Assembly (NCBI GenBank): GCA_022571295.1 | Contig: JACZYA010000007.1 | Span: forward strand, 1-51,518 | DNA: 51,518 nt | From: Acidobacteriota bacterium | GTDB taxonomy: Bacteria; Acidobacteriota; Terriglobia; Acidiferrales; 2-02-FULL-67-57 | Direction: 5' to 3' | Shown: positions 43,676 to 51,518 of the stretch, piece after piece | Layout of the letters: each line of letters opens with the position of its first letter | How positions within the stretch are numbered: position 1 is the stretch's first letter | The notes under the pieces: model-generated | What the model was told of the DNA's origin: nothing | Databases searched by the model: none | The model's input: only the letters and a program-made list of their open reading frames with translations | Made by a program: the position numbers and the translations under genes

Positions 43676-44230
43676 ATGCGGAAGGAAACTTTCTTGAGTG
43701 GGTTGGTTGTCGTCTTGGCTGCAGGCATCGGACTGGCGGGTTGTCAGGTGGAAGCGCCCGCTTTGCAATCCGGGCAGGCCAAGGAGTTGTTGGGGAGCTG
43801 GACCAATCAGGGCAAGAAGTTGATCGAGATGGCGGAGGATTTCCCCGAGGACAAGTACGGTTACAAGGCCAGCGAGGAGATTCGGCCTTTCGGCGAGTTT
43901 ATCCGCCACATCGCCGCCGTCAACTTCCGCTACGTCCGCATGGAGCAGGGGCAAGAGTACGACCCGGCGGAGTTCGCGCCCGAGAACTTCAAGAGCAGAG
44001 CGGACCTGGCCGCGCTCATCAAGCGCTCGTATGACGAGGGGGCGGTGCTGCTTGAGCAGGCCGGCGACGCGCAGATGGTGGAGGCGGTCAAGAACCCCTA
44101 CGGCGACTACACCAACAGTCGCTACGCCTACTGGATGCAGGCGGTCGAGCACGCCGCCGAGCACTACGGCAACCTGGTAATCTACTACCGCTTGAACGGC
44201 CTCGTACCCCCGGCCTCGCGCGGCAACTGA
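43676..44230 (+). CDS. DinB-like lipoprotein (first of tandem pair)
   Basis: DinB-superfamily four-helix protein of 184 residues with a lipoprotein signal (lipobox LAGC, about residue 23). The likely metal histidines are in FIRHIAAVN and VEHAAEHYGNL. DinB proteins include thiol-dependent transferases acting with bacillithiol or mycothiol, but exported members have no assigned role. A paralogue follows 143 bp downstream. AAGGAG precedes the start. Confidence 0.85.
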   Translation: MRKETFLSGLVVVLAAGIGLAGCQVEAPALQSGQAKELLGSWTNQGKKLIEMAEDFPEDKYGYKASEEIRPFGEFIRHIAAVNFRYVRMEQGQEYDPAEFAPENFKSRADLAALIKRSYDEGAVLLEQAGDAQMVEAVKNPYGDYTNSRYAYWMQAVEHAAEHYGNLVIYYRLNGLVPPASRGN

Positions 44231-44373
44231 GTTAAGTGTTCTGAACAGAGGAAGACCACGGTGACGAGGGCACGCCGAGATTTTCTGGCAACCTTGTGGG
44301 CTGGTATTCCGTCCAAGTGTCTGAACGAACGGTTGCGGTTGAATCCGACCACACAACTTTGAAGGAGGGCTTT

Positions 44374-44895
44374 ATGCGCAGGTTAGTGACCTTTTCCGTG
44401 CTGTTGGCAGTTTTCATCGTTGGAGCCGGGCTGGCTCAGGCTCAGGACCAAACGCCCCCGACTCCGCAGGAACGGCTGGCGCGCTCCTGGAACAGCGTCC
44501 ACAAGAAACTGATCGACATGGCTGAAGACTTCCCCGAAGACAAGTACGACTACAAGGCCCACCCTGACGTGCGCAGCTTTGGCGAAGAGCTTATGCATGT
44601 CGCCCGGGTCAATGCTGTTGTTGGCCAGAGGGCTGGGGGGCGGGAGGACAGCTTTGGGAAAATCTTTGGTGAAATCGCTGAGGACTACAAGTACACGTCC
44701 AAAGCTGACACGGTCGCCAAGCTGAAGAAGTCGGTAGAGGATTGTGAGGCGGCAGTGAACGCGGAAGACAATTCCCGGCTGATCGGCATCCTCGAACACG
44801 CGGGGGAGCACTACGGCAAGTTGGTGGTGTACTACCGCGTCAACGGGCTGGTGCCACCCGCCACCCGAGCGGCGCAGGAACAGCAACAGCAGTAA
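44374..44895 (+). CDS. DinB-like exported protein (second of tandem pair)
   Basis: Exported DinB-superfamily protein of 173 residues with a signal peptide (VLLAVFIVGAGLAQAQ). The core KLIDMAEDFPEDKYDYKAHPDVRSFGEE is nearly identical in pattern to the upstream paralogue (KLIEMAEDFPEDKYGYKA). The three candidate metal histidines are kept (LMHVARVN, EHAGEHYGKL). It is periplasmic but not a lipoprotein, unlike its neighbour. GAAGGAGG precedes the ATG at 44374. Confidence 0.87.
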   Translation: MRRLVTFSVLLAVFIVGAGLAQAQDQTPPTPQERLARSWNSVHKKLIDMAEDFPEDKYDYKAHPDVRSFGEELMHVARVNAVVGQRAGGREDSFGKIFGEIAEDYKYTSKADTVAKLKKSVEDCEAAVNAEDNSRLIGILEHAGEHYGKLVVYYRVNGLVPPATRAAQEQQQQ

Positions 44896-48335: not shown

Positions 48336-48367
48336 TTGACTCTATAGCCAGCTATAGGGTTTAGACT
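48336..48367 (+). promoter_or_regulatory. MerR-type promoter/operator
   Basis: -35 TTGACT (48336-48341) and -10 TAGACT (48362-48367) are separated by 20 bp, the over-long spacing typical of MerR-activated promoters. The spacer holds the dyad ACTCTATAG-CCAG-CTATAGGGT (48339-48360) with 8 of 9 arm positions paired. The start codon of merR (48374) lies about where transcription should begin, so the message is probably leaderless and the regulator controls its own operon. Confidence 0.85.
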
Positions 48368-48373
48368 GTAGGC

Positions 48374-48817
48374 ATGAGCGCGCGGCTCTTTATCGGCAAA
48401 GTCGCCCAGGCGGCCGGCCTGAGCGTGCAGGCGGTGCGCTACTACGAGCGGCTGGGGTTGCTGCCGCCCGCGGAGCGGACGGCGGGAGACTACCGCGCCT
48501 ATCGCCCCGAGGCGGTGGAGCGACTACGGTTCATCCGCCAGGCGCAGGCGGCGGGTTTTCGGCTGGAAGAAATCCGGGAGATTTTGCGGATGAAGTTTGC
48601 CGGGCAGTCGCCTTGCGAGTGCGTGCGCACGATGCTGCAACGGAAACTGGAAGAGGTGGAGGAGCAGATGGCGGCGCTGGGGCGCTTTCGGAAACAACTG
48701 CGGCGAACCTTGCAGCGAGCTCACTCATTGCCCCGCCTGCCACATCGGGCCAGCGCCATCTGTCCGATGATCGAAAGTATGCCTACGGTCGGAAACAAGG
48801 GAGGCAAGAAGCGATGA
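48374..48817 (+). CDS. MerR-family metal-responsive regulator
   Basis: MerR protein of 147 residues. The winged helix is standard (LFIGKVAQAAGLSVQAVRYYERLGLLPP), followed by the long dimerisation helix (EVEEQMAALGRFRKQLRRTL). Metal-site candidates are Cys81 and Cys83 (SPCECV), His117/His124 and Cys130 (AICPMIE). The first region and the late CPxI match mercury- and zinc-sensing MerR/ZntR proteins, but the cysteine usually found shortly before the CPxI segment is missing. It ends in TGA, and the same frame stays open to 48946. Confidence 0.92.
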   Translation: MSARLFIGKVAQAAGLSVQAVRYYERLGLLPPAERTAGDYRAYRPEAVERLRFIRQAQAAGFRLEEIREILRMKFAGQSPCECVRTMLQRKLEEVEEQMAALGRFRKQLRRTLQRAHSLPRLPHRASAICPMIESMPTVGNKGGKKR

Positions 48818-48844: not shown

Positions 48845-48901
48845 ATGGGTGGATTCGAGCAAGCATGCGGCGTTGTGGAATGCCGAGAAAGGAGGCAGAC
48901 G

Positions 48902-48946
48902 ATGTGTCCATTGTGTCCGTATTGCCCGGATGACGGCTGCTGCTAG
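48902..48946 (+). CDS. 14-residue cysteine-rich microprotein
   Basis: The frame encodes MCPLCPYCPDDGCC and stops at TAG: six cysteines in fourteen residues. AAAGGAGG at 48888-48895 stands 6 nt before the ATG, an ideal ribosome-binding site. Spaced CxxCxxC and a terminal Cys pair would bind a soft metal ion. It sits between the MerR regulator and the MerT-like selenoprotein, so it should be expressed with them. The frame is also in phase with merR across its TGA, leaving the alternative that it is a C-terminal extension of the regulator. Confidence 0.65.
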   Translation: MCPLCPYCPDDGCC

Positions 48947-49060
48947 GCGGTCGTGATTCGCATAGTCCCGCCGAGAAGGTGGCGGGCGAACCGGCTGCGG
49001 GGGTGGAGCGGCCGATCCACTCCCAGCCGATTCGGACAGCGGCAAGATCAAGAAGGAACG

Positions 49061-49363
49061 ATGCGAGAAAAACCTTCCAGCGCGGTGAGCGTTCTGCTGG
49101 CGGTTCCCTGGTGTTGAGTGGCCCCGGCGCTGCTGTCCACGTTTGCGGTGGGTGGCGCCGCGGCGGCTCGGGGAGTCGTCGGCCAACTCTTGCCCTGGTT
49201 GTTTCTGGGCACGGTGGGCTTCCTCGCCTACGCGCACTATTTGGCTTGGGTGCGAGGGCACGGGCGCAGGGCAACCCGGTGGATTCTGGGAATCAACACA
49301 GTGATGGTAGTGTACTTCTGGTACGGGCGGGTGCGCTTTTGGGTCGAAGGCTGGTTGAGCTAG
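49061..49363 (+). CDS. MerT-like membrane selenoprotein (Cys-Sec pair)
   Basis: Translated with TGA (49115-49117) as selenocysteine, this is a 100-residue protein with three TM segments. The first contains PWCUVAP, with Cys18 and Sec19 at the place of the vicinal Cys-Cys in MerT helix 1 (ACCLGP type). The second is LLPWLFLGTVGFLAYAHYLAW, the third WILGINTVMVVYFWY. Read without Sec, the gene would need to start at a GTG directly after the TGA with no ribosome-binding site and half of helix 1 missing. GAAGGA precedes the ATG. It should carry Hg(II) or a similar ion across the inner membrane. Confidence 0.82.
49131..49157 (+). other. Candidate bacterial SECIS for the MerT-like UGA
   Basis: Stem CTGTCCAC (49133-49140) with GTGGGTGG (49148-49155), extendable by two pairs to 49131/49157, includes G-U pairs. 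The loop GTTTGCG has G first and begins 24 nt after the UGA. All three properties fit the bacterial SECIS pattern. Confidence 0.65.
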
Positions 49364-50184
49364 TTCTGCTGGCGGTGGTGCTCTGGCTGCCGGGCGCAGC
49401 GCAGGCGCAGATTGTGGCGCCGGGCGGGCGCACGCTGTTCAACCGGGCGGTGATGGTGCGCAGCTTCGTGCGCATCGACAACTTCGCCGAAGGCGTGCCG
49501 GGGGTGCGCGTGCGGCGCGTAGTCAATCCCTACGCGGTGGTCTGGGGCGCCTACCCGCATCTGAATTTGACTTTTGTAGCCCCGCTGGTGAGCGTGCAGA
49601 GCGACGCGCCCGGCCTGCCCGCGCGCAACTTCACCACCACCAGCTTCGGCGACGGGTTCATCTTTGCCCGCTACGACCTGCTGCGCAAGAACGTGCGCGG
49701 CGGATTCACCCGGCTCTCGCCCGAGATCGGCGTGAAGCTGCCCAGCGGGGGCGCCTTCGGCAGCGGCTCCACCGATCCCATCGCCGCGCTCATTTTCTCT
49801 CACGTGCGCGACCCGCATTGGTTCATCGCCGACGCCGAGTTCACCTACACCACCACCGGCGACGGCGGCCTGCGGCAGGGAAACCACTGGAACTACGACC
49901 TCGCTTACCTTTATCGTGTGCTGCCGCGCGGCGGGCTGGGCATCCCCGCCTTGTATTTGGTGCTGGAGATGAACGGCCAGCACATGCGCCGGGCGCGGCT
50001 GGGCGGGGCTAAGCTGCCCGACACCGGCGGCAATTTGGTTTTCTTGTCACCCGGAATCGAGTTCATGGCATCCAATCGGGTGGTGTTAGAATTCTCTTCG
50101 CCCATCCCGGTGGGGCGGGATTTGAACGGCTCGCAATTGAAGCCGACTTCCAGCTTCATCTTGGGGATTCGGTGGTTGTTTTGA
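49339..50184 (+). CDS. Outer-membrane beta-barrel transporter of the mer-like operon
   Basis: Protein of about 281 residues. From a TTG at 49339 it begins with a clear signal peptide (VELVLLAVVLWLPGAAQAQ) and continues as an all-beta barrel with alternating strands (LNLTFVAPLVSVQS, FGDGFIFARYDLL, LSPEIGVKLPSGGAFG) ending in IRWLF. It resembles the MetA/phenol-degradation type transporters (PF13557-like). The start overlaps the end of the MerT-like gene by 25 bp; other starts are possible because the frame is open from 48979. In context it should let the metal ion or its ligand through the outer membrane. Confidence 0.75.
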   Translation: MGRRLVELVLLAVVLWLPGAAQAQIVAPGGRTLFNRAVMVRSFVRIDNFAEGVPGVRVRRVVNPYAVVWGAYPHLNLTFVAPLVSVQSDAPGLPARNFTTTSFGDGFIFARYDLLRKNVRGGFTRLSPEIGVKLPSGGAFGSGSTDPIAALIFSHVRDPHWFIADAEFTYTTTGDGGLRQGNHWNYDLAYLYRVLPRGGLGIPALYLVLEMNGQHMRRARLGGAKLPDTGGNLVFLSPGIEFMASNRVVLEFSSPIPVGRDLNGSQLKPTSSFILGIRWLF

Positions 50185-51146
50185 TGAATCGGATAACGCT
50201 CAGCTTGGTGAGTCTGTCGGCTGTCCTGCTGGCGGCCTGCGCGCGCGAACCGGCGCCCCCGCCGGAGCCGGTCGGGGCGCACTACCATTTGCTGGCAGTG
50301 TGGGGTGAGTCCGGCCGGGAGCCGGGCCAGTTCGACGGCGTGCAGGGGTTGGTGGTGGATGCGCAGGGCCAGGTGTACGTGGCCGACGCGGAGAACTGCC
50401 GCGTGCAAGTCTTCACCAACGCAGGAGAATTTCTGCGCATGTGGGGCAAGTGCGGGGAGCGGCGGGGCGAGTTCCTCAAGCCGGTGGACGTGGCGGTGGG
50501 TCGCGGCGGCGAAGTGTTGGTGGTGGACTTCATGCTCGACCGGGTGCAGGTGTTCGACCGCGAAGGAAATTTCCTGCGCCAGTGGGGGCGCTCAGGGAAA
50601 CGCAACGGAGAGTTTTCCGCGCCGGTTGGTGTGGCAGTGGATTCCGAAGGGAACGTCTATGTGACTGACTTCTACAACCATCGCGTGCAGAAATTTTCTT
50701 CGCAGGGGAAGTTTCTGGCTGCGTGGGGGGTGGACGGCGGGGCCGAGGGCCAGTTGCATTACCCGGGGAAGTTGACGGTGGCCGCCGACGGAAATATCTA
50801 CGTGGCCGATGCGCACAACTACCGCGTGCAGAAGTTTGATTCCGAAGGGAAGTTCCTGGCAACGTGGGGAACTTCGGGCACTTGGCAGGGGCAGTTCCAG
50901 GACCCGACCGATCTGGTCGTGGACCGGAACGGAAACCTGCACGTGGCCGACAGCGGCAACTTCCGCGTGCAGTGGCTGGACGCGGAGGGGAACTACCTGG
51001 CGGAGTGGGCGGTGCCGGAAAGCGCCGGGCCCAAGTTCCAGTCTCCGCAGGCGCTGGCCCTGGATGCCGAGGGATTGCTGTACGTCAGCGACGCCGCCAA
51101 CAATCGCATCTATAAATTGGAGGCGGTGACAGGGAGGCAGGAATGA
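50184..51146 (+). CDS. NHL-repeat lipoprotein
   Basis: Lipoprotein of 320 residues. The signal ends in lipobox LAAC (about 15). The mature part is a six-bladed NHL propeller, each blade with the pattern GLVVDAQGQVYVADAENCRVQVF (for example at about 57, 104, 151, 198, 245, 292). Such propellers act as protein- or ligand-binding scaffolds. Its ATG shares one base with the stop of the barrel gene, and its stop overlaps the HMA gene (ATGA), so translation is coupled across the operon. A role in the metal system is inferred from position only. Confidence 0.88.
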   Translation: MNRITLSLVSLSAVLLAACAREPAPPPEPVGAHYHLLAVWGESGREPGQFDGVQGLVVDAQGQVYVADAENCRVQVFTNAGEFLRMWGKCGERRGEFLKPVDVAVGRGGEVLVVDFMLDRVQVFDREGNFLRQWGRSGKRNGEFSAPVGVAVDSEGNVYVTDFYNHRVQKFSSQGKFLAAWGVDGGAEGQLHYPGKLTVAADGNIYVADAHNYRVQKFDSEGKFLATWGTSGTWQGQFQDPTDLVVDRNGNLHVADSGNFRVQWLDAEGNYLAEWAVPESAGPKFQSPQALALDAEGLLYVSDAANNRIYKLEAVTGRQE

Positions 51147-51518
51147 ACAAACAAGTACGCCGGGCAATTTTTTCCATCGCGCTCTTGAGCGCTTTCGGGC
51201 TTGTGGCTGCGGCGCCGGCCGCGGCGCAGGTGGAAAGCGCGCGGGTGCGCGTTGACGGGATGTCTTGACCGCTTTGAGCCTACGGGGCAGAAAAAGCCCT
51301 GCGACGCCTGGATGGCGTCGGCCAAGTGAAGGTGGAGTTGAAGACCGGCCAAGCGGTCGTGCGGCCGGCGGAGGGAAAGAGCTTCGACCCGACACAGATT
51401 CCGCGGGCGATCAAGGACGCCGGTTTCGACGCGGGAGAAATTGAGCTGACCGCGGTCGGGACGCTGGGTAAGCAGGAAGATTTCTTACTGTTGGAGCTGT
51501 CCGGTGCGGTGCGCAAGT
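51143..51518 (+). CDS. MerP-like HMA-domain selenoprotein with Sec-x-x-Sec (partial, runs off window)
   Basis: With TGA read as selenocysteine, the visible 125 codons give a signal peptide (FSIALLSAFGLVAAAPAAAQ) and an HMA ferredoxin-like domain: RVRVDGMSUPLUAYGAEKAL, LDGVGQVKVELKTGQAVVRP, IPRAIKDAGFDAGEI. In MerP and copper chaperones the motif is GMxCxxC; here both Cys are TGA (Sec42 at 51266-51268, Sec45 at 51275-51277). Without Sec there is no usable start for the rest of the domain. AGGGAGG lies 5 bp before the ATG. The sequence continues past the domain (LGKQEDFLLLELSGAV) and is cut by the window end. Confidence 0.85.
51283..51320 (+). other. Two tandem SECIS-like hairpins for the HMA UGA codons
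   Basis: Hairpin 1: CGGGGC/GCCCTG (51283-51288, 51296-51301), loop AGAAAAA, loop start 21 nt after the first UGA. Hairpin 2: perfect 7-bp CGACGCC/GGCGTCG (51302-51308, 51314-51320), loop TGGAT, loop start 32 nt after the second UGA. Both loops have G in position 2. Each UGA thus has its own element within the 16-37 nt window. Confidence 0.7.

Follow-up and report, generated by a model that had tools for sequence, protein, structure and literature searches.

Selenocysteine-containing (Sec) forms of MerT- and MerP-type proteins have already been described (PMC2398784; PMC13188914), and NCBIfam already holds models for selenoproteins of the MerT/CopZ type (NF045683 and NF041115). Short Cys-rich ORFs are also known from mycobacteria, where, as far as the account cited in PMC9094748 goes, they act as cysteine-responsive regulators (Canestrari et al. 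2020). Our search of the open-licence literature turned up no earlier description of a Cys-rich micro-peptide from a mer or ars operon. In this paper, we have analysed a 14-codon Cys-rich ORF, hereafter the micro-ORF, in a 51,518-nucleotide stretch of DNA from an Acidobacteriota bacterium (the window), which makes up one entire contig (C112) from a genome of 3.24 Mb. The micro-ORF belongs to a + strand operon in the order MerR, micro-ORF, MerT-like protein, outer-membrane-type protein, NHL protein and HMA protein, the last of which reaches the contig end. The features of this region are as follows.

48336..48367, + strand: candidate MerR-type promoter/operator, TTGACT - 20 bp - TAGACT, with dyad CTATAGCCAGCTATAG (48342-48357), inferred from sequence.
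48374..48817, + strand: MerR-family metal regulator, 147 aa (Pfam MerR_1 6.7e-19, MerR-DNA-bind 7.2e-19).
48888..48895, + strand: Shine-Dalgarno site AAAGGAGG, read from the sequence and kept in the homologues (alignment).
48902..48946, + strand: micro-ORF MCPLCPYCPDDGCC, 14 aa, five Cys (translation, shuffles, homologues, coding signature).
49000..49023, + strand: 3' dyad/stem-loop GGGGTGGA-GCGGCCGA-TCCACTCC, whose loop does not vary among the seven dyad-containing loci.
49061..49363, + strand: MerT-like membrane protein, 100 aa, with an in-frame TGA at codon 19 (49115-49117); weak match to NCBIfam merT_RC607, 2.8e-4.
49357..50184, + strand: predicted outer-membrane-type protein, kept in the operon (Pfam PF13557 5e-4, below cut-off).
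50172..51146, + strand: NHL-repeat protein with a lipoprotein-like N-terminus (Pfam NHL 3.8e-46).
51143..51518, + strand: MerP/CopZ-like HMA domain, cut by the contig end, in which TGA-xx-TGA (51266-51268, 51275-51277) replaces CxxC.

Translation from the ATG at 48902 to the stop at 48944-48946 gives MCPLCPYCPDDGCC*, with cysteines at C2, C5, C8, C13 and C14, and a spacer of 6 nt separates the ATG from the Shine-Dalgarno site. The first-pass annotation had rightly described a 14-residue ORF with a ribosome-binding site at good spacing, located between a regulator and a transporter gene, but had counted six cysteines instead of five; its span of 48888-48946 does hold the micro-ORF, but takes in the ribosome-binding site and gives a wrong frame if read from 48888. 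The observation is therefore real and partly confirmed, with the cysteine count corrected. Longer readings from in-frame starts upstream were rejected, the upstream part being without conservation. The Cys-rich micro-ORF is more than a product of chance: no other ORF on either strand of the window combines a length of 8-40 aa with at least five Cys and at least 30% Cys, and 200 dinucleotide-preserving shuffles of the window yielded no such ORF with an ATG and a Shine-Dalgarno site (a mean of 0.045 Cys-rich ORFs per shuffle when the latter requirement was dropped).

Seven other Acidobacteriota genomes contain near-copies of the micro-ORF, which follow a MerR gene in one genome and an ArsR gene in six; all eight loci have the same architecture, i.e. 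a regulator gene followed by GAAAGGAG(G) and a short Cys/Pro ORF. The second MerR-linked locus is that of another Acidobacteria MAG (L024), in which MCPCGPCPCCPADGD lies between merR and a Sec-Sec merT. In two of the ArsR-linked genomes (G001 and G002), an ArsR gene stands at the end of the same Sec-mer operon and is followed by MCPCGPCPCCPDDGE and MGPCCPFPCCPDDGGR, respectively. Two further ArsR loci were found through the dyad described below, namely G032 (MSPCCPGPCCPGDGCC) and G028 (MKPCCPWPCCPGDA); G038 (MSPCCPGPCCPGDGCC) and G067 (MKPCCPWPCCPGGA) came to light when the 95 available genomes of the order were searched for the motif, the reversed control pattern giving zero matches in the same genomes. 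Furthermore, a search of this order with an ArsR alignment matched six genomes, which are exactly the six that contain the micro-ORF motif. In the alignment the ribosome-binding site is kept in all eight loci, and the peptides of the relatives contain 4-6 Cys in 14-16 aa; the pattern varies (CPLCPYC, CPCGPCPCC, PCCPxPCC), the version in the window being the most divergent. The known range is one order and one further Acidobacteria MAG. In a sample of 396 genomes of the phylum, a pattern allowing at most two mismatches gave no instance outside the order, apart from one spurious match, but as this pattern misses the window's own shorter variant, more divergent members may have been missed. A search of viral contigs gave no match. 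The first-pass annotation had staked its claim on finding a conserved Cys-rich micro-ORF at the same place in related operons, with loss of the cysteines or of the ribosome-binding site speaking against it; such an ORF was found, with both conserved, in the seven other genomes.

The frame itself also carries a coding signature. Over the 14 codon columns, 5, 8 and 12 columns are variable at codon positions 1, 2 and 3, respectively, and in a column-shuffle test the observed amino-acid similarity was reached in 0 of 2000 shuffles and the observed synonymous fraction in 13 of 2000, the two other frames having far lower scores. As judged from the six to eight related sequences on which these tests rest, the signature is supportive rather than strong. 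Taken with the comparative data, the micro-ORF appears to be a real, conserved gene, and it is highly probable that its peptide is truly made and selected.

The surrounding operon provides a selenocysteine context. In the MerT-like frame (49061-49363) the TGA stands at the second vicinal Cys position and is read as C-Sec, and in the HMA frame (51143-51518) a predicted SecxxSec replaces CxxC; a standard gene caller would break up both genes or cut them short. The genome encodes SelB (358 bits, over the curated cut-off) and a tRNA-Sec (67.9 bits, anticodon TCA), so selenocysteine is the likely reading of these in-frame UGAs. Relatives of the MerT-like protein were found with an alignment as query, a single MerT sequence having given no match. 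In all seven aligned sequences (that of the window and six others) a UGA stands at the same position, giving C-Sec or, in L013, L016 and L024, Sec-Sec. More distant MerT-like frames whose vicinal Cys position is occupied by TGATGA were seen in other Acidobacteriota families (L018 and L021), the frame in L021 adjoining an NHL-repeat gene. The Sec-containing MerT/MerP part of the operon is of a known kind. As for the regulator, the best NCBIfam models for the MerR protein were MerR, CueR and CadR, all below cut-off, and no metal-specific model scored above cut-off; a MerR-type promoter/operator similar to that of the window is present in L011 and L024. Elsewhere in the window, two adjacent and similar genes at 43676-44230 and 44296-44895 encode secreted-looking proteins (HAAEHYGNLVIYYRLNGLVPPASR and HAGEHYGKLVVYYRVNGLVPPATR), probably a tandem duplication.

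In three further close Sec-merT operons (L023, L026 and L025), small Cys-rich ORFs likewise lie beside merR or close to it. Those at L023:5791-5943 and L026:3077-3226 encode peptides of 50 and 49 aa, respectively, with signal-like N-termini, which are located between merR and the Sec-merT and have a CCxxPADCxHPxCC stretch near the C-terminus, whereas L025:906-1121, immediately in front of merR in G002, encodes a secreted-looking protein of 71 aa that contains two CCC clusters. Since the family searches had a 20-residue minimum, they covered these longer Cys-rich neighbours rather than the 14-aa peptide. No Pfam or NCBIfam match was obtained for the 71-aa protein, and none above cut-off for the 49-50 aa peptides, one of which was tested; an SbtA-type identity of the 50-aa peptide was rejected (E 0.64, covering the N-terminal 20 residues only). 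The ArsR proteins of the micro-ORF loci in turn have CC or CCC clusters, and in G032 an arsenate-reductase-like (arsC-like) LMWPc protein and an aquaporin-family protein are encoded divergently from ArsR, which we take to be an arsenic-resistance arrangement. The common theme is a small product dense in thiols beside a soft-metal sensor.

Other explanations of the micro-ORF turn in part on the region 3' of it, which contains an 18-nt dyad, GTGGAGCGGCCGATCCAC (49003-49020), near-palindromic and with the self-complementary core CGGCCG. This dyad, the selenocysteine context and the ArsR-linked copies were absent from the first-pass annotation. The dyad is present in seven of the eight loci, with one copy per genome behind the micro-ORF, and its stem is mostly paired around the invariant 8-nt loop. 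Used as an independent probe of 61 genomes, the dyad matched six, in five of which (the window's genome, G001, G002, G032 and G028) it lies behind the micro-ORF; the match in G048, inside an unrelated coding gene, was rejected. This association, the nearly invariant core and a compensatory pair change in the stem, the one instance of covariation, would fit a conserved RNA or DNA element composed of the Shine-Dalgarno site and GTGGAGCGGCCGATCCAC, e.g. an mRNA 3' end or stability hairpin or a protein-binding site, to which the ORF is incidental. However, the dyad lies outside the ORF, which itself varies as coding DNA does; moreover, the dyad is absent from L024, which has the ORF, and an Rfam search with the dyad gave no matching family. 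We regard an incidental ORF as the least probable of the alternatives weighed here.

A regulatory leader peptide, also suggested in the first-pass annotation, would sense cysteine, or a metal-depleted Cys supply, through ribosome stalling on the Cys codons and control downstream expression via the 3' stem-loop. Such a role would suit the very high Cys content and short length of the ORF, its strong ribosome-binding site and the conserved stem-loop behind it, and the mycobacterial ORFs provide a precedent within the limits of the cited account; in both MerR loci the micro-ORF does precede merT. The suggestion is weakened by the ArsR loci, however: in four of the six (G001, G002, G028 and G067) a convergent gene comes next and leaves nothing to attenuate, so that a leader role is unlikely where the micro-ORF is the last cistron, and a position upstream of co-transcribed genes that it could regulate is found in the MerR loci only. 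In addition, the stem-loop has no U-tract, and the Pro, Asp and Gly positions of the peptide are conserved too. A leader role is accordingly less likely, and we consider it rather improbable. The 49-50 aa ORFs occupy the same place and likewise have a C-terminus rich in Cys and Pro, which might instead suggest that the micro-ORF is a decaying remnant of longer secreted Cys-rich peptides (G001, G049), or that it couples translation or acts as a spacer, its peptide being without function. Yet homologues of the micro-ORF itself exist, preceded by the same ribosome-binding site, and the two kinds of ORF are separate genes, because G001 carries both a secreted ORF behind MerR and a micro-ORF behind ArsR; we therefore think a remnant or spacer improbable.

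The reading that we prefer, with a probability of about 0.55, is that the micro-ORF encodes a cytoplasmic Cys/Pro peptide that may buffer or hand over a soft metal or metalloid. The micro-ORF would share a transcript with a metal(loid) regulator (MerR in the window, a Cys-rich ArsR in the relatives), and its translation would start from a strong ribosome-binding site of its own. Sensing of the ion by the regulator would induce the operon and with it production of the peptide, metal-induced expression being suggested by the position behind MerR or ArsR. The closely spaced thiols would most likely bind a soft, thiophilic ion such as mercury or arsenite, which could be kept from vital thiols, or be passed to or from the Sec-containing MerT/MerP pathway or the regulator. 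The chelator or hand-over idea, with its predicted binding, is plausible, as it fits the pattern and has comparative support; ArsR, MerT and HMA, like the arsC-like and aquaporin-family genes of G032, are partners from thiol-metal systems, and the Cys-rich small ORFs of the other Sec-merT operons point the same way. Counting against a metal-binding peptide are the frequent proteolysis of peptides as short as this product, the variable cysteine pattern, the restriction of the finds to one order and one further MAG, and the absence of a metal-specific match above cut-off for MerR. More tentatively, and with less confidence than in the preferred reading, it is possible that ribosome-binding site, ORF and 3' dyad form a unit that is exchanged between ArsR and MerR regulons, and that it encodes an undescribed family of 14-16-residue thiol peptides, which serve as minimal metallochaperones supplying the Sec-based MerT/MerP pathway. 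If true, few encoded metal-handling proteins would be smaller than such a conserved metal peptide, which would be linked to metal sensors of two unrelated families. Genes of this size are invisible to gene callers, the regulator-plus-motif signature offers a simple way to look for more of them, and the link to Sec-containing metal transporters provides a testable pathway.

Compared with the described selenoprotein MerT/CopZ-type transport proteins (NF045683, NF041115; PMC2398784; PMC13188914), the MerT-like and HMA proteins of the window share UGA at the metal-binding Cys positions, but their scores fall below the NCBIfam cut-offs, the MerT and HMA genes are separate, and MerT has C-Sec or Sec-Sec. 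The mycobacterial leader ORFs, as described in the account cited in PMC9094748 (Canestrari et al. 2020), are likewise short Cys-rich ORFs in an operon; the micro-ORF differs from them in having a Shine-Dalgarno site, in following a regulator gene and in often being the last cistron. Bacterial metallothioneins and short Cys-rich metal-binding peptides are likewise short, high in Cys and linked to metal regulators, and the micro-ORF peptides probably have thiolate chemistry in common with them. The peptide of the window shows the small size and the large share of Cys in CC, CxC or CxxC spacing that mark metallothioneins (five of its 14 residues), and the micro-ORF peptides are set apart from the bacterial metallothioneins by their length of 14-16 residues and their CCP/CP motifs.
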